Virus record (IMG/VR): IMGVR_UViG_3300040961_000088
Span: 1-27,366 of that record
Direction: 5' to 3' (one strand)
Length of the DNA stretch: 27,366 nt
From: a virus
Positions 3,974 to 24,782 of this stretch are shown one piece after another. The notes beneath the pieces are model-generated. The model was not told where the DNA came from and made no database searches. It saw nothing but the letters and a program-made list of their open reading frames with translations. The first letter of the stretch is position 1. The number at the start of each line of letters is the position of its first letter. The translations under genes were made by a program, and so were the position numbers.

Positions 3974-4666
3974 GTAGGCACACGCGGCGCGGAAGTCGGG
4001 CAGCCAGCCGGGTTCCTTGAGCCGGGTTTGAATCACCTTCTGGCGGTTGAGCGTGCTCTTGGCCTGGGGGAGCTTGCCCTGGGTGAGTTCATTCCAGATC
4101 GTGACCACCTCGGCAGATTTCACAGCGGCGGCGGTCGATGCAATCGACGAAGGCTCTTGTTCTTTCTCTGGCTCTGGTACAGGACTCTGGCTCTGGACTC
4201 TGGTACAGGACTCTGGCTCTGGTAGTGGCATTTCGTGCGATTCTGTGCGCATTTGTGCGCACGGCTCCTCGTAACGTGCGCACGCTTTCTCCCTTTCCTT
4301 AAGCGAAAGGCGGCGCATCCGAGGCAATTCGCCGTTGGCATACCTCATGCCGTTGCGGGAGAGCTTGTTGTCGGTGGCGTCGTCGCTGTGGATATGCCAG
4401 TCGTGGACAATGAGGCGGTGTTCATCGTTCGCCTCAAGGAAGCCGGACTGCACCAGGGCAAGGACCATGGCCGATGCGTCACCGTCGTAAAACATCTCCA
4501 TGGCTATGTCTTCGTCGGTCATCTTCCCGATAGCGCCCGTCGGGGCCTGTTCGCCCGTTACATGCCAGAGAGATTCGACAATACCGAGAGCGAAGCAAGC
4601 GGGGATGTGCATCAGGTTCCCTAGGCGCCGCGTCTTTCGGTGAGTAAGTGTTCCCCTCAGTGCCAT
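3875..4666 (-). CDS. phage replication initiator-like protein, C-terminus replaced
   Basis: A 263-residue protein. It resembles phage replisome-organiser proteins: an N-terminal winged-helix-like domain (about 1-105, 'GALVQSGFLE'-type wing seen as 'VLALVQSGFLEANDEHRLIV' core 'LVQSGFLEAND', then 'VHDWHIHSDD'), a Pro/Glu/Ser/Gln linker (145-175) and a DnaT-like C-terminal domain beginning at 'VVTIWNEL' and reaching 'PDFRAACAYLAETPWYSD' (to D240). The usual next motif, N-D-R-G/Q-W then A-x-F/I-D-F, is missing. The final 23 residues are antisense to another gene's start. The missing motif is found at 6837-7088 on the other strand. The start is ATG at 4666 in a TGATG overlap with the nuclease gene, with AGGAG upstream. 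As written, the protein is probably impaired. Confidence 0.8.
   Translation of the reverse strand: MALRGTLTHRKTRRLGNLMHIPACFALGIVESLWHVTGEQAPTGAIGKMTDEDIAMEMFYDGDASAMVLALVQSGFLEANDEHRLIVHDWHIHSDDATDNKLSRNGMRYANGELPRMRRLSLKEREKACARYEEPCAQMRTESHEMPLPEPESCTRVQSQSPVPEPEKEQEPSSIASTAAAVKSAEVVTIWNELTQGKLPQAKSTLNRQKVIQTRLKEPGWLPDFRAACAYLAETPWYSDRLRYGRGLRGQVQHAVHPGGVFA
4172..4222 (-). repeat. 25-bp tandem repeat, period 26, in the linker of the replication gene
   Basis: Two identical 25-bp copies (4172-4196 and 4198-4222) built from CTCTGG units lie one base apart. The 26-base period is not a multiple of three, so the second copy is read in a different frame. The same DNA gives PEPESCT in one copy and QSQSPVPEPE in the other. 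Both frames are rich in P, E, S and Q, so the linker stays disordered. Confidence 0.85.
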
Positions 4667-5148: not shown

Positions 5149-6110
5149 GCCGTCACCGCCGGGAACTCTTTCCACTCGCGGCCGTCGAGCATGGCGCCAG
5201 CGGCGTCCTTGCCGAGCCGATAGACGTCAGGCGCATCGTCGCGGTGCAACTCTTCGCTCTGACGGGGAGTCAGCGAATCGTAAAGCCAGCGGCCATTCCA
5301 CCAGGTTGCAGTCCGCTCGGCGCGGGAAGGCAGAGAACCGGCGCATGCCCCAGGTGCCCACTCGCCCCATTGCTTGAAAAAGAAAGGTACCCCAGCGGTT
5401 TGGCACTGATCACGCAAAGAGCGCGCCCATTTAGGAAGCATCGGCCGTGCATTCGGCCCGCTTTCGCCTCCGCAGATCACCCAGTCGAGCCGCCCATGCT
5501 CCGGGCCGTCGCTTACTTCGCCGTGAATCGAGTGGTAGATGTCGCCTTCGTCGAGCGCGCTGAAGTGCCATTCATGGTCATCTGGCGCTGTGATGCGGGT
5601 CAGGTCCACCGGCCCAACCATCGGCTCGACGCTCACGCCGTGGACCGCCGCTGGTATCGAGAGCAGGATCGGGATGCGCAGATCGGCCATCGGCTGATTC
5701 TCGGCAGTGACCATGAGCCAGACGTTCGGGTAGCCGGTGCCCCAGTCGGCCGGCAGACATGCCGCGATGCGCTCGGGGCGCTTGGTGCAAAGCTGGTAGG
5801 TTAGGTTCGGCGTCTGCCGGATGATGGCCCAGGCTTCAGCGCGCCAGGCGTCGGCCTCTTCGATGAAAAAGTCAGACCACGAATCGACGAACACGCGGTT
5901 TATGTGCCCGTACTTTTCGCGGTTTTGTGCCCATTTCAGCGGGGCGTTGAAGGTCGCCGCGGCGGAACGAACCACCACATCGGGGGTCTGTCCATACCGC
6001 TTTTTGTCGGTGAACATGTAGCAGTTCTTGCAGCCGGGCGAGACCTTATGGCAGCCCTGCCAGCAGTTCCACGTTGCATCGGTCCAGGCAATTGCGGTGC
6101 TAGCGCCCAT
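5145..6110 (-). CDS. phage Gp37/Gp68 family protein (DUF5131)
   Basis: A 321-residue protein matching the Gp37/Gp68 (DUF5131) family: 'STAIAWTDATWNCWQGC' at the N-terminus, then C20-x6-C27-x2-C30 in 'CHKVSPGCKNCYM', 'FVDSWSDFF', 'QLCTKRPER', 'VSVEPMVGPV', 'WVICGGESG' and 'PFFFKQWGEW'. The three cysteines resemble a radical-SAM-type iron-sulfur site. The biochemical role of the family is not established as far as I know. The start at ATG 6110 fits the family beginning and has GGGGGTGG upstream. Fourteen more residues upstream (to 6152) look non-homologous. It overlaps the preceding gene by 11 bases. No TcmP-like partner gene is visible nearby. Confidence 0.9.
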   Translation of the reverse strand: MGASTAIAWTDATWNCWQGCHKVSPGCKNCYMFTDKKRYGQTPDVVVRSAAATFNAPLKWAQNREKYGHINRVFVDSWSDFFIEEADAWRAEAWAIIRQTPNLTYQLCTKRPERIAACLPADWGTGYPNVWLMVTAENQPMADLRIPILLSIPAAVHGVSVEPMVGPVDLTRITAPDDHEWHFSALDEGDIYHSIHGEVSDGPEHGRLDWVICGGESGPNARPMLPKWARSLRDQCQTAGVPFFFKQWGEWAPGACAGSLPSRAERTATWWNGRWLYDSLTPRQSEELHRDDAPDVYRLGKDAAGAMLDGREWKEFPAVTA

Positions 6111-15817: not shown

Positions 15818-18151
15818 ATGGGCGGTCTCTTCGGCGGCTCTTCCAACGCGACAACGCCGGTCAAGCTGGCGGGCATTCAGGTTTCGACGGCCATGTATGG
15901 CAAGCCGAAGCCGCTGGTCTACGGCTGCACCTTGATTGCCTCAAACATGATTGACTACGCCGGATTCACGTCCAAAGCTACCTCCTCGGGCGGCAAGGGC
16001 GGCGGGGGCGGGACCACCGGCTACAACTACTGGTCTGATGTGATTCTCGCGCTCTGCGAGGGAGGCCAGTCAGGCATTGTTGGCGTTCAGCGCGTCTGGC
16101 AGGACAAGGACTGCTACACCCTCAGCTATTACGGCCTCTCGCTCATGACGGGCGCTCGGCCGCAATCTCCCTGGGCATCTTGGGCTAGTAAGTGGGGCAG
16201 CCGCGCTCTTGGCTACAGCGGGACGGCCTATGTCGCCGCGCTTCAACTTGCTCTCGGGTCCGGTGGCAGCATCCCCAACTACAACTTCGAGGTTCAGGCG
16301 CTCCTTGGCACCGAGGTAGACCCGAACTGGGCCGGATCGTATGACGCCAAGCCGTCGGCGGTAATCCTTGACATGCTCTCGAACCCCTTCTACGGGGCCG
16401 GATTCAAAGCGGCGCGCATTGCCGACATGGTGACCGGCGCGGCCAGCTTCCAGACCTACTGCACTGCTTGCGGCTTTGCCATCAGCCCGGCTTTCACCGA
16501 CCAATCGGACGCGGCAACCTGCCTGCAAACAATCCTCGACGCAACGAACTCTGAGGTTGTCTGGTCATCCGGCACAGCGGGCATGGTCCTCAAGATCATC
16601 CCCTACGGTGACACGCCCATCACAGCCAACGGTGTCACGTACACGCCGAACACCACGCCCCTCTATAACCTCACCTTTGACGATTTCCCGGGGGCTGTCG
16701 GCAAGGACGGCAAGCCTACCGGCACGGACCCGATCAACGTCACCCGCTCAAGCACTCAGGACATCAAGAACGATGTTCCCGTGGAATGGTGGGACCGCAC
16801 AAACGGATATAGTACAAGCATCGTTGACACCCCGGAGCCTTCAGATGTGTCCCTAAATGGCCTGAAACAGGACTCTCCGCTCACCCTGCACCTCATTACC
16901 CGCGCCGCTCACGCAAAGCAAATCAGCGCCATCAAAGCACAGCGGAATGTCTTCGTCCGCAACACCTACACGGTCAAACTTGGATGGAAGTACATTCTGC
17001 TCGAACCGATGGACCTAGTAACCCTGACCGATTACATTTCAGGGTTGCTGCAAAAGATCGTCCGCATTGTCAGCATCGACATGCCGGACGAAACCAGCGA
17101 AGAGGACGGCCTGACCGTCACGGCTGAGGAGTGGCCATTCGGTATCGGAACGGCGGCACTCTACACCACTCAGCCGGGACAAGGCAACTCCCCAGCCACA
17201 AGCCCGGCCCCGACCGTCTCAGGCGCTGTCGTCTTCGAGCCGCCTACGCTCATGACCGAATCCGGAGGGCCTGAAATCTGGATCGGTGCTTGCGGAACCC
17301 CGACGCTCTGGGGCGGCTGCAATATCTGGGTGAGCCTTGACGGTGGCAACAGCTACGGTGTGGCGCCCGTCGGCATCATCGAGCAATCGGCGCGCATCGG
17401 GTCACTGACCGCAGCGCTTCCCTTGAACGCCGATCCTGACACCATGGACACGCTGGCCGTGAGCCTGGCTACCAGCCTCGGGACACTCAACAGCACCAGC
17501 GCCAACGGGCGCGATTCCTTCGCAACGGCTTGCTTGATTGGCTCGGAGATCGTCTCTTACCTCACAGCCACACTGACCAGCGCGAACGCCTACAACCTCT
17601 TCAATCTTCGGCGCGGCGGCTACGGCTCGACCATCGCCGCTCATGCGTCGGGCGATAGCTTCATGTTCCTCGACGACGCCATCTTTAAGTTGCCCTACGC
17701 CGCGGCGCTCATCGGCAAGACGATCTACGTCAAGTTGCAGAGCTTCAACGCCATGGGCTCGGGGTTGCAAAGTCTGAGCGCCTGCACAGCCTACAGCTAC
17801 ACGCCGAGCGGGACGATGTTCCCGGCCCCGCCTGTTGTGGCGCTGAGTCAGTCCTCCACCTACAGCGGTGCAAGCAGTTCCACATCTGGGGGCAGCCTCG
17901 TGACTACCAGCAACGGCCTGGCGGCGGCGGCTCAAGTGTGGCTCACGGTGTCGTGGACCTGGGCTTCCAACTTCCCAACGCCCACCGGGTTCAACGTGGT
18001 CATCTTCGAGGGGAATGACCCCACCAACGTCAGCAACTACATCGTGCCCATATCGGTCGTGGGAGCCACAGCCCGGAGCTTCACCATCGCTGTGACGCCC
18101 AACGCCTCTATGACCAATGTGAACGCCGCAGTGGAGGCCATCTATGCCTAA
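15818..18151 (+). CDS. tail tip (host specificity, J-like) protein
   Basis: A 777-residue protein beginning 'MGGLFGGSSNATTPVKLAGI', which is the usual opening of the large central tail-tip protein of phages with the DUF2460-DUF2163-NlpC module. It includes 'VYGCTLIASNMIDYAGF', 'LALCEGGQSGIVGVQRVW' and a later Ser/Thr/Gly-rich beta region with 'LVTLTDYISGL' and 'FNLRRGGYGSTIAAHASGD'. The protein forms the tip that contacts the receptor. It starts one base after the upstream stop, and its TAA overlaps the fibre start by eight bases. About 330 residues of the C-terminal part look like fibronectin-type or similar beta modules. Confidence 0.85.
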   Translation: MGGLFGGSSNATTPVKLAGIQVSTAMYGKPKPLVYGCTLIASNMIDYAGFTSKATSSGGKGGGGGTTGYNYWSDVILALCEGGQSGIVGVQRVWQDKDCYTLSYYGLSLMTGARPQSPWASWASKWGSRALGYSGTAYVAALQLALGSGGSIPNYNFEVQALLGTEVDPNWAGSYDAKPSAVILDMLSNPFYGAGFKAARIADMVTGAASFQTYCTACGFAISPAFTDQSDAATCLQTILDATNSEVVWSSGTAGMVLKIIPYGDTPITANGVTYTPNTTPLYNLTFDDFPGAVGKDGKPTGTDPINVTRSSTQDIKNDVPVEWWDRTNGYSTSIVDTPEPSDVSLNGLKQDSPLTLHLITRAAHAKQISAIKAQRNVFVRNTYTVKLGWKYILLEPMDLVTLTDYISGLLQKIVRIVSIDMPDETSEEDGLTVTAEEWPFGIGTAALYTTQPGQGNSPATSPAPTVSGAVVFEPPTLMTESGGPEIWIGACGTPTLWGGCNIWVSLDGGNSYGVAPVGIIEQSARIGSLTAALPLNADPDTMDTLAVSLATSLGTLNSTSANGRDSFATACLIGSEIVSYLTATLTSANAYNLFNLRRGGYGSTIAAHASGDSFMFLDDAIFKLPYAAALIGKTIYVKLQSFNAMGSGLQSLSACTAYSYTPSGTMFPAPPVVALSQSSTYSGASSSTSGGSLVTTSNGLAAAAQVWLTVSWTWASNFPTPTGFNVVIFEGNDPTNVSNYIVPISVVGATARSFTIAVTPNASMTNVNAAVEAIYA

Positions 18152-20858
18152 CTCAGCCTGGACAGAAACCGGAAGCGCCATCAGTCTTGCACCGAGCACG
18201 ACGCCCATCAACACCGGAAGCGACCCTGAGAACGTCAACTATCTGTCGAATCAGGACAAGATAAACCTCATAGCTCAGTACGCGGGTGAGCTCGCGATGA
18301 AGACTGCGCTCGATACGCTGACGAGTACCTGGTCTGTTTCCAGTAGCGCCTATGACGCGGCCGTCGCCGCCATCAGCACGGGGCTCATCAACGCCGGGGC
18401 ACCTTCCAACTGGGCAACCATCTGGCCGGACGGGGTGACCAGTGGACCATGGACCGGCATACAGACTTCGTTGGCTAATTGGTTTGCCCAGGTGGCCACC
18501 CAGCGCACGGCTCTTCAGTCCTCCATTTCAGCGGCTCAAGCGGCGGCGGCACAGGCGGCGGCGGTGACGGCAGCCGTAGCCCAAGCAATAGCCAACGCCC
18601 CGGTTGTTGTGTCGAGTCTCCCAGCGCTGCCCAATGCCGCGTACCCGTCCGGGCGGATAGTTTGGAACACGGCAGACGGACACCTCTACGTCAGCACCGG
18701 GAGCGCCTGGAACTCGCTGACACTGGCGGCGGCAAACATCACTGGGACGGTGACCGCCGCTCAGATTGCAGGCGTTGCCGCCTCGCAGGTCACAGGCGCA
18801 CTCACAGCCTCACAAATCGCCTCAGTGAACGCGACGGCTGTGTCGGGCACTCTGACGGCATCTCAGATTGCCTCGGTGAATGCTACCGCCATACAAGGAA
18901 CACTGACCGCTGCCCAAGTTGCGAGTGTTGCCGCCTCTCAGGTGACCGGGCAGCTAACCGCCGCGCAGATTGCGTCCATCGCCGCGTCACAGCTAACAGG
19001 ACAAATCACTGGCACTCAGATTTCAAACGGGGCCGTCAGCACCCCGCAACTCGCAGCCGGGGCCGTAACTGCCGCGACCATTGCGGCCAACACGATCACG
19101 GCTAGTCAAATCGCGGCTGGGGCCATCACGTCTGCACAAATCGCCGCCGGAACGGTAACTGCCGCCAACATCGCAGCGGGCACAATTCAGGCGTCGAACA
19201 TTGCCGCCAACACGATCACTGGCGCGCAAATTGCTGCGGGCTCTATCACTGTCACCCAGCTAAACACCCCCGGCGTGAACCTGTTGGATGCCTCGTGGTG
19301 GACGCCTGGGGCTTCGATTCCATGGAATCGCAATCAAGGCTCTGCGAACACTCAGGATAGCTTTGTCTCGGCGACGGCTCCCGACGGTTCAAACCGTGTC
19401 GTGTGGCAGGCGACTGCGGGCGCTAGTGACGGCTCCTTGGCTGGCGGTGGATGGGACGCCGGAGGCGCTGGAAACCAATTCCCGGTGAACACTGCGAAAA
19501 CCTATATGTTTGTTTGCTACCAGAGGCACGTCTCCGGAAACGGTACAGGATATTGGGGGGTTCAAGATAATAGCGTATGCGACCTAAACACCTCAAACGT
19601 GCAGGGAAATCCCTACTTCTCCGCTTTCGGGGTTCCCGTGGTCGGACGCTGGTATCTGGTCGTTGGCTGGGTCTATCCCGCCGGTTCAACGGGAATGAGC
19701 AATGCGCAAGCTGGCCTCTGGGACTGCACTACGGGGCAGTTTGTCCAGGGCGGTCTTTCATTCTGCTGGGAAGCTGGCGTTGCTTCCTCCGGCTCACGCG
19801 CTTATCAGTACTATTCGAACGGCGGTGTACATCAGTTCTTTGCGCCTGCCGTCTACATGTGCGACGGAACCGAACCATCACTAAACCAGCTTCTAGCGTC
19901 AGGGTCTCCGTCTGCCCTGAATCCGATCACAGCAGCGAACTCCACAACGTACATCGGTGCCGGGTCGATCTCCACCGGGCTGGTTGCCGCTCAAGCTATC
20001 ACCGCCGCACAGATCGCGGCTGGCACCATTACGGCGGGACAAATCGCGGCCTCTACGATCACCGGCACTCAAATCGCCGCCGGAACGGTAACTGCCGCCA
20101 ACATCGCAGCGGGCACAATTCAGGCGTCGAACATCGCCGCTGGCACCATCACGGGTGCCAATATTGCGGCTACCACGATCACCGCCGCGAACATTGCTGC
20201 GGATACCATCACTGCTGGTCAGATCGCGGCGGGGGCCATCACCGCGAGTGAGCTTGCGGCAGGGGCAGTCACTACCGCAGCACTCACGGCAGGGTGCGTC
20301 ACAGCGGGAAGCATAGCGTCGGGAGCTATCACCGCCAGCATGATCACCTCTGGCACGCTCAACGCAGCGAACGTCAACGTCACCAACCTCAACGCGAGCA
20401 ACATCACCACGGGCACTCTCAGTGCTTCTCAGGTTCTGTTCTCGGACGGAACCTCACTGAACTCGGCCAACCGGGTCGCGACAATGTTCAAGCAGCCATC
20501 TTCGGACAACATCGCCGTCGGGAGTTCAACCGCCCTGATTCCGGGGCTGAGTTGGTCGGTTACCGTCCATTCGGCAAACGATGTGTTCAACTTTTTCGGG
20601 GCGCTCACTGCCGAGCAAACATCCGGCACGACGAACAGCCCTGTAAATGTGTACTTCTACGTGGATGGAGTCTTCGGGGGTTCTTATCCGTGCGTCCCGC
20701 GGTTCCCATCGCTTAGCGTTTGGTACGTCTTCCCCATCGCCGCGGCGATTTCAGGGCTGAGCATAGGCGCGCACACCATCTCGATCTGGGCAAACAACAA
20801 CGGCTACCCATTCACGGTGAAAGCGGAGACTCGCGTCACTTGCCAGCAGATCTACTAA
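18144..20858 (+). CDS. tail fibre with Ala/Ile/Thr repeats and a central domain
   Basis: A 904-residue fibre. Residues about 195-370 and 615-730 are repeats of a short unit of the type T-I-T-A-x-Q-I-A-A-G, as in trimeric beta-helix shafts. Between them (about 375-600) lies a globular insert beginning 'NLLDASWWTPGASIPWNRNQ', rich in aromatic residues and probably a sugar-binding domain. The last 125 residues form a C-terminal cap with 'GLSWSVTVHSANDVFNFFG' and 'VNVYFYVDGVF'. The start at ATG 18144 is inside the previous gene, six bases after GGAGG. The fibre probably recognises the host surface. Confidence 0.85.
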   Translation: MPNSAWTETGSAISLAPSTTPINTGSDPENVNYLSNQDKINLIAQYAGELAMKTALDTLTSTWSVSSSAYDAAVAAISTGLINAGAPSNWATIWPDGVTSGPWTGIQTSLANWFAQVATQRTALQSSISAAQAAAAQAAAVTAAVAQAIANAPVVVSSLPALPNAAYPSGRIVWNTADGHLYVSTGSAWNSLTLAAANITGTVTAAQIAGVAASQVTGALTASQIASVNATAVSGTLTASQIASVNATAIQGTLTAAQVASVAASQVTGQLTAAQIASIAASQLTGQITGTQISNGAVSTPQLAAGAVTAATIAANTITASQIAAGAITSAQIAAGTVTAANIAAGTIQASNIAANTITGAQIAAGSITVTQLNTPGVNLLDASWWTPGASIPWNRNQGSANTQDSFVSATAPDGSNRVVWQATAGASDGSLAGGGWDAGGAGNQFPVNTAKTYMFVCYQRHVSGNGTGYWGVQDNSVCDLNTSNVQGNPYFSAFGVPVVGRWYLVVGWVYPAGSTGMSNAQAGLWDCTTGQFVQGGLSFCWEAGVASSGSRAYQYYSNGGVHQFFAPAVYMCDGTEPSLNQLLASGSPSALNPITAANSTTYIGAGSISTGLVAAQAITAAQIAAGTITAGQIAASTITGTQIAAGTVTAANIAAGTIQASNIAAGTITGANIAATTITAANIAADTITAGQIAAGAITASELAAGAVTTAALTAGCVTAGSIASGAITASMITSGTLNAANVNVTNLNASNITTGTLSASQVLFSDGTSLNSANRVATMFKQPSSDNIAVGSSTALIPGLSWSVTVHSANDVFNFFGALTAEQTSGTTNSPVNVYFYVDGVFGGSYPCVPRFPSLSVWYVFPIAAAISGLSIGAHTISIWANNNGYPFTVKAETRVTCQQIY
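19137..19201 (+). repeat. 65-bp direct repeat, copy 1, in the fibre gene
   Basis: Identical to 20070-20134. Encodes QIAAGTVTAANIAAGTIQAS plus three residues, in the same frame as copy 2. The copies are 933 bases apart. Confidence 0.9.
20070..20134 (+). repeat. 65-bp direct repeat, copy 2, in the fibre gene
   Basis: Identical to 19137-19201, with only flanking bases differing. Recombination between the two would remove 311 codons in frame, including the globular domain. Confidence 0.9.
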
Positions 20859-24323: not shown

Positions 24324-24338
24324 ACCGCAGGGCGGCAA

Positions 24339-24782
24339 TCACTTGTACACGACGCCAGAGACAGGAGCCTGGCAGCCGGTCGAGAGGTATACGTTCGGCG
24401 CCACACAAACGGGCAGAAAGAGGTTGTGAATCGCGCTCGGGGCCGTGATGGCCACGTCTGCCATCGTCACCACGTAAGCCAGCTTGCGGTGATGGTGGGC
24501 GACCAGCTTCCGGGCAATCCAGTACTGCGCGGCGACCATGCCGGCCGAGTAGAGGGCCATCATCGGCGGATGGTTGGCGATGAAGCCGGGGAGCACCCGC
24601 TCTTTGTTGCCCGCTTGCTCTGCCCAGTGCGTCGAGTAGACATCCAGGCCCCGCACCGCGGCGTCAGTGGCCAGCAGGGACCATTCCAGGCGGTCAAGAT
24701 GTGGCTTGGGCGCATCCGGCAGGGCCTGACCGGACAGGGGCGCGGCGCAAATCATCAGCGCGCAGAGGATGAGGGTTTTCAC
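24339..24782 (-). CDS. exported protein of the acidobacterial type
   Basis: A 147-residue protein starting with GTG at 24782, GGAGG just before. A signal peptide 'MKTLILCALMICAAPLSGQA' is followed by 'LPDAPKPHLDRLEWSLLATD' and 'VRGLDVYSTHWA', then 'VLPGFIANHPPMMALYSAGM'. A hydrophobic middle and 'HHHRKLAYVVTMADVAI' follow. In my memory this layout is a host protein family of Acidobacteriota. No enzymatic function is known to me. It lies inside the phage operon and its start overlaps the stop of the preceding gene (ATGTGA). A frame reaching back to 25064 is not real. Confidence 0.7.
   Translation of the reverse strand: MKTLILCALMICAAPLSGQALPDAPKPHLDRLEWSLLATDAAVRGLDVYSTHWAEQAGNKERVLPGFIANHPPMMALYSAGMVAAQYWIARKLVAHHHRKLAYVVTMADVAITAPSAIHNLFLPVCVAPNVYLSTGCQAPVSGVVYK

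Follow-up and report, generated by a model that had tools for sequence, protein, structure and literature searches.

Can the middle of a phage tail fibre be gained or lost as a unit, and what do two identical stretches of DNA within the fibre gene record? The question is raised by a viral contig of IMG/VR (record IMGVR_UViG_3300040961_000088, positions 1 to 27,366); the whole stretch of 27,366 nucleotides that was analysed is called the window here. A preliminary description, made from its letters, had proposed that recombination between two 65-bp copies deletes the central domain of the fibre and could thereby change host range. The observation has been confirmed, while the interpretation as a whole is partly supported: the most that can be stated is that recombination left the 65-bp copies as a recent footprint, and that they bound an optional module of the fibre. 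The features concerned are the following:

15818-18151, + strand: tail hub or J-like protein adjoining the fibre (PF13550 Phage-tail_3, E 2e-21; PHROG tail protein, E 4.8e-99)
18144-20858, + strand: central tail fibre gene, 904 aa (ORF; PHROG tail-fibre matches, E 9e-27; parts at both termini conserved among the relatives in IMG/VR)
18144-18725, + strand: conserved N-terminal part, aa 1-194 (alignment; a relative is encoded at 33 loci)
18729-19022, + strand: 17-residue repeats, about aa 196-293 (read from the translation)
19023-19259, + strand: left decapeptide array, about aa 294-372 (translation set out ten residues at a time; array finder: 287-376)
19137-19201, + strand: 65-bp repeat, copy 1 (exact-repeat scan)
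19260-19949, + strand: interior globular domain, about aa 373-602 (non-array stretch between the arrays, 377-607)
19950-20429, + strand: linker and right decapeptide array, about aa 603-762 (translation blocks, array finder)
20070-20134, + strand: 65-bp repeat, copy 2 (exact-repeat scan)
20427-20855, + strand: C-terminal head domain, about aa 762-904, modelled as a TNF/C1q-like jelly roll (structure model, structural alignment)

The two copies agree at 65/65 positions with an offset of 933 bp, and start in the same frame at codons 332 and 643 of the fibre ORF, so that the product of recombination to a single copy would lose 311 codons, keep 593 of the 904 and leave the frame intact. The exact-repeat scan of the whole window thus reproduced the geometry given in the preliminary description to the base. 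No other exact direct repeat of this length exists in the window; the runner-up, among repeats of at least 20 bp, measures 25 bp (4172/4198) and belongs to a short tandem repeat at 4172-4222, with 25 identical bases at a spacing of 26.

Since both copies sit in arrays of 10-residue repeats, the tract is embedded in a wider repeat of 73% similarity, against which its identity has to be judged. In an in-frame self-comparison of the array region, the longest exact run at offsets other than 933 is 14 bp, and the longest run obtained by shuffling the matches of the 235-bp alignment was 37 in 20,000 shuffles. Within the tract 21/21 codons are identical, compared with 9/22 and 4/13 at the flanking positions that encode the same amino acid, and the probability of a 21-codon coincidence, given the peptide and the codon usage of the array itself, is about 1e-9. 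The edges of the tract are sharp (65/65 inside, 60/105 to the left and 49/105 to the right). Chance identity and protein-level constraint, considered as causes of the 65 bp, were ruled out by these run-length, shuffle and codon counts; as the codons match beyond the flank level and other offsets reach only 14 bp, the identity is a recent DNA event, not a by-product of protein constraint.

The fibre gene overlaps the 3' end of the hub gene by 8 bases at its 5' end, and in some relatives (L055 and the prophage-like loci L086 and L087) the hub and the fibre N-terminus lie in one long frame, a fusion which suggests that the fibre of the window is a central, J-like one. L087 also carries two similar interior domains in tandem. 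BLAST homology to the relative L030 resumes at 19920, and the linker pattern was found only in the L030/L031 contigs. The fibre matches no Pfam family at E 0.001, and the decapeptide repeat region does not reach the 45-bit cut-off of PF25296, for which L030 scores 13.6 bits (E 0.065).

The preliminary description had considered the segment to be removed as globular and probably sugar-binding. An interior domain does lie between the copies, and its comparison with Pfam, PHROGs and PDB sequences, which gave chance-level matches at most, yielded nothing convincing for sugar binding. No relatives of the domain were found in other IMG/VR contigs, and there was no match to PF02018 (CBM_4_9) at E up to 1. 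The single-sequence structure model (mean pLDDT 31.5) was unusable and no fold search was run with it. A similarity to the domain of L049 (24% identity over 131 aa, E 5e-4) counts as no more than a hint, and a profile comparison with the domains of eight relatives gave no support. In the relatives, PA14 and other quite different module families fill the same slot: the domain of L042 at this position passes the PF02018 cut-off (E 7.8e-8; 33.2 versus 25.9 bits) and that of L034 falls below it, while L047 and L048 carry PA14 domains (E about 1e-18). By analogy with the position of these CBM_4_9 and PA14 domains, sugar binding is a reasonable guess for the interior domain, which may be an accessory adhesion domain.

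The C-terminal head could be modelled with more success, as a monomer from 15 sequences (pLDDT 85). Its jelly roll can be aligned over most of the domain with TNF/C1q-like structures, the closest being the bacterial TNF-like lectin PLTL (9ib7; VIA-align Z 13.2, with 123 residues aligned at rmsd 2.3; Foldseek E 8.4e-5), followed by the N-domain of the lectin BC2L-C (Z 12.4); other TNF/C1q-type heads also align. Because of this lectin-like fold, the head is the first candidate for receptor recognition, although a shared fold is no proof of binding. The proposed deletion leaves the head intact, which weakens the earlier suggestion that such an event could change host range: the spared head being a better candidate for the main receptor binder than the domain lost, loss of the latter might, judging from the model, tune adsorption rather than switch the host.

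With the N-terminal part as query, 33 IMG/VR loci were obtained, 20 of them complete and with the same head type, corresponding to 14 distinct fibres. Left out of this count are fibres that run off the contig end (L036, L041, L050, L051 and L061), those of L053 and L054, whose ORF ends at 298 aa, and those of L055-L060, with a different layout; L074 and L076, in which only 611 and 768 bases of contig precede the match, were likewise excluded. Among the 14, an interior domain is absent from five and single in seven, while one fibre has two such domains and another three; fibres without the domain occur in L035, L039, L040, L043-L045 and L010. Full-length fibres in all relatives, named in the preliminary description as evidence against its reading, were therefore not what the comparison returned. 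In bacterial genomes (genome_contigs), the N-terminal part has matches at two loci, L028 and L029; a match is found in 5/77 genomes of the family to which the genome of L028 belongs, and in 3/396 genomes drawn from its phylum. The records of L028 and L029 bear the name Holophagaceae (Acidobacteriota); the matches link this soil phage group to that family and point to a host there, though they are no proof of it.

The tail genes of the window group with those of L010, L041, L043-L045, L049/L052 and L050 (94-96% identity in one tail protein). The N-terminal part of the fibre, on the other hand, is 80% identical to that of L030 and 61% to that of L010, whereas the hub is 86% identical to that of L010 and has only about 115 C-terminal residues in common with the hub of L030. 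Since the histories of the fibre N-terminus and the hub disagree, fibres have moved between phage backbones. From gene position 2275 onward, the fibres of L010 and the window share 86 bp exactly within a surrounding 511 bp of about 80% identity, which suggests that another exchange took place recently close to the tip, where the head region begins. Furthermore, about 350-400 bp within 24329-24734 of the window are 73-77% identical to the DNA directly 3' of the fibre in phages with the other backbone (L030, L032, L035, L037, L040 and L042); here this DNA lies 3.5 kb from the fibre. In L053 and L054, which have identical upstream DNA, the fibre frame at 6001 stops inside an apparent interior domain and reads like a broken or differently organised fibre. 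Finally, among the distant relatives, the fibre end of L057 (aa 614-673 in its ORF at 6001) has a PT-HINT match below the cut-off (E 5e-4), similar endings being found in L056, L058 and L059, the last with no PT-HINT match; these fibre ends read like a Hint-type self-processing domain, which would be unusual at such a place.

The fibres without the domain allow the empty site to be compared with the window. L035 has one uninterrupted array and no interior domain, as has the near-identical L036. When this array is aligned with the window, its best matches are 103/144 in the left block and 108/144 in the right block, at offsets which differ by exactly 933. The array of L032, the domain of which sits further along, gives 121/144 and 102/144, again with an offset difference of 933, the next-best offsets in these block comparisons reaching 85-93 matches. 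For L035, the change from left-type to right-type is best placed at 19125-19134, where copy 1 starts (19065-19227 within three matches), and for L032 at 19133 (19125-19202 within three matches), although with an array period of 30 the placement depends on a modest excess of matches; the reverse order, right-type and then left-type, brings no gain. L033 is ambiguous, with a right-block offset difference of 903 by 97 matches or 933 by 94. L030 has the linker and right array of the window with a different domain and without the left array. From these alignments, the fibre of the window resembles a left part of the L035 type followed by a right part of the L030 type, with the tract once in each.

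The motif itself differs between lines: the copies of the window match each other at 65/65 positions, and those of L027 (the same as L032) and L002 (the same as L030) at 57/65, from which it follows that the tract became identical after the L027/L032 and L002/L030 lines had separated. The difference of 933 bp may reflect a gain of the module by the window or a loss in the L035 line, both of which fit the alignments. Thus, of the deletion proposed earlier, one part stands, L035 and L036 being arranged as the expected product; the other is less specific, as the repeat may equally record a past insertion or swap. The empty-site alleles belong to a different phage backbone, with only about 70-79% DNA identity to the window.

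Exchange of whole interiors can also be followed between closer relatives. Around the fibre start, L030 and L037 have 95.2% identity over 1,700 bp, and yet their fibres are alike only at the two ends, for roughly 413 nt at the beginning and 559 nt at the end; L032 and L033 (93.5% upstream) have nt 1-1089 in common, then different domains, and similarity returns beside the second array. In these interior swaps, found on upstream DNA of 93.5-95% identity, the breakpoints lie in or beside the arrays. Conserved ends, different interiors and breakpoints bounded by arrays, as in a modular fibre, are therefore all present in the group.

The window also codes for recombination functions:

195-1247, + strand: YqaJ/RecE-like exonuclease (PF09588, E 1.5e-17; PHROG 434)
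1264-2205, + strand: RecT annealing protein (PF03837, E 9.9e-51; PHROG 148, E 1.2e-81)

The statement in the preliminary description that the phage encodes its own RecT is thus borne out, and the exonuclease can be added to it. RecT-type proteins anneal homologies of 65-bp length, and the RecT of the window is a candidate for acting on the two copies.

The reading which we favour, and hold to be probable, is that of a modular fibre in which array-bounded modules are gained, lost and swapped, the 65-bp copies being both a recent footprint and an in-frame exit route. The fibre would consist of a conserved N-terminal part attached to the tail, a shaft built from short repeats, an interior module that may be absent and a TNF/C1q-like tip. 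Across the phage group, interior modules would be gained, lost and exchanged through recombination in or beside the repeat arrays, adding, removing or exchanging whatever stands between them, with the frame preserved because each repeat unit has a length divisible by three. The identical copies would be the recent footprint of one such event; they bound exactly the segment that separates the window from the uninterrupted-array allele. Of this reading, the repeat, the arrays, the variation in modules, the 933-bp correspondence and the swaps at the arrays are observed. If recombination at the tract made the present allele, annealing could reverse it: RecE/RecT-type annealing or host recombination would drop the 311-codon module in frame, with shaft and tip staying in place, and the exact tract would be the best substrate in the fibre gene for the next event.

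Under a more dynamic explanation, the copies would recombine often within one population, so that long and short fibres coexist and adsorption or host range is altered. The in-frame homology of 65 bp at a distance of 933 bp, the RecT and RecE-like genes that the phage itself carries and the relatives holding an allele of the expected short arrangement speak for such a switch. Nevertheless, the short form of the window phage that the preliminary description envisaged was not found: the exact 65-mer is present in 0 other IMG/VR contigs, in a scan of exact matches which a short form with one change in the tract escapes. Nine groups of contigs have 100% identical 1.7-kb DNA around the fibre start; two were left out, one member being cut off, and fibre length differs in 0/7 of the complete ones, which is a weak test, as none of them has a long domain-flanking repeat. 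L051, a sister contig with 100% identity over 6,226 bp, breaks off after 226 bp of the fibre, short of the repeat site, and the phages collection has no near DNA match and three records with distant protein matches. Moreover, of the 34 fibre loci, itself included, the window alone has a domain enclosed by a long exact repeat; the remaining long repeats consist of tandem units at a spacing of 30 (36 bp in L032, 50 bp in L046/L047), and the same domain-flanking footprint, sought at the other swaps in the 34 loci, was not seen. This weighs against the favoured modular reading too, as do the value of 903 for L033, the modest excess of matches by which the switch is placed, and the different backbone of the empty-site alleles. 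With no length variation in the seven groups and no other domain-flanking repeat, occasional exchange over evolutionary time fits these comparisons better than a constant switch, and we regard the latter as unlikely.

Another possibility is gene conversion between two old arrays, by which a short tract would have been copied while the presence of the domain is unrelated. A short identical tract with sharp edges in flanks of 47-57% similarity agrees with it, as do the forms of the motif upstream of a domain in L027/L032 and downstream of one in L002/L030: as motif forms flank domains on either side in relatives, both copies could predate the arrangement of the window. Conversion by itself, however, leaves the switch of both L035 and L032 at this same tract unexplained, and is judged distinctly improbable. 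The record being an IMG/VR contig, with a domain and an exact tract that occur in no other, one may also think of two strains' fibres joined at a common 65-bp tract during metagenome assembly. Against such an artefact, the frame is open over 904 codons, the outer flanks of the two copies fit those of the relatives and a repeat of 65 bp is shorter than usual read lengths, which makes this the least credible explanation, with a very small chance of being right. The modular fibre with a recent footprint is therefore retained as the preferred reading. Its most far-reaching extension, in which the arrays would be a docking sequence for interchangeable adhesion modules across Acidobacteriota phage backbones, loaded and unloaded in frame by RecE/RecT-type recombination, with long and short fibres coexisting and differing in adsorption, strikes us as distinctly improbable too.

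Several known systems resemble the window in part. In the adhesin domain duplications of bacteriophage T4 described by Tetart and co-workers in 1996, host range is said to have changed through the gain of a small fibre domain by recombination; these duplications reportedly lie at the fibre tip, unlike the interior domain in a decapeptide shaft considered here. A close parallel is that of Brucella phages, whose long and short tail-fibre alleles likewise differ by a segment between direct repeats: a region of 2,443 bp is reported as deleted between 9-bp direct repeats, and the authors suspect repeat-driven recombination (PMC5350156). Same-frame repeats which exactly bound a variable segment are found in the window as well (65 bp; 933 bp against L035 and L032). 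In the Brucella case, two genes are affected and the phages are otherwise nearly identical, whereas here a single in-frame domain is concerned, the repeat lies within peptide arrays and short alleles are known only in distant relatives; in the IMG/VR comparison, the two alleles were not encountered together, be it within one stock or among phages of near identity.

In the antireceptors of Streptococcus thermophilus phages, variable regions are separated by collagen-like repeats, suggested in the relevant part of the source to be recombination hotspots (PMC5601072), and PMC7242381 cites work by Desiere et al. as well as a deletion that arose spontaneously at one of these repeats in Sfi21. The likeness lies in variable tail-protein domains separated by peptide repeats; the repeats described there are collagen-like and the phages from dairy, while those of the window are decapeptides in an Acidobacteriota-linked phage, with whole interior domains present or absent. 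In lactococcal phages, optional carbohydrate-binding modules, as in the evolved Dit, aid adsorption or bind host cells (PMC10688798 and PMC6669499). These are also optional globular insertions in a tail protein, but they are placed in Dit, neck or tail tube proteins and their function was tested, whereas the window is known from its sequence alone. The virophage Guarani has an in-frame deletion of 81 nt in a collagen-like gene, selected together with host expansion (PMC7242381); the loss is likewise inside a repetitive gene, although Guarani is not a tailed phage and, as reported there, the repeats themselves were lost and not a domain between them. PMC6410104, considered as a further parallel, was rejected, since the part concerned deals with point changes in a phage and not with repeat deletions. 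A literature search for decapeptide repeats in phages brought nothing relevant, which is no claim of absence from print, and one for Sfi21-type deletions gave a secondary mention only.

Fibres decide to which bacteria a phage attaches, and new fibre architectures are usually inferred from distant comparisons. Here, an identical tract, an insert-free allele and several array-bounded swaps come together in one phage group. Since other phages already illustrate the general idea, the window provides a clear new case and no new principle. What it offers is a testable route by which recombination between shaft repeats would gain or lose a whole module of the fibre, with the frame and the tip unbroken.
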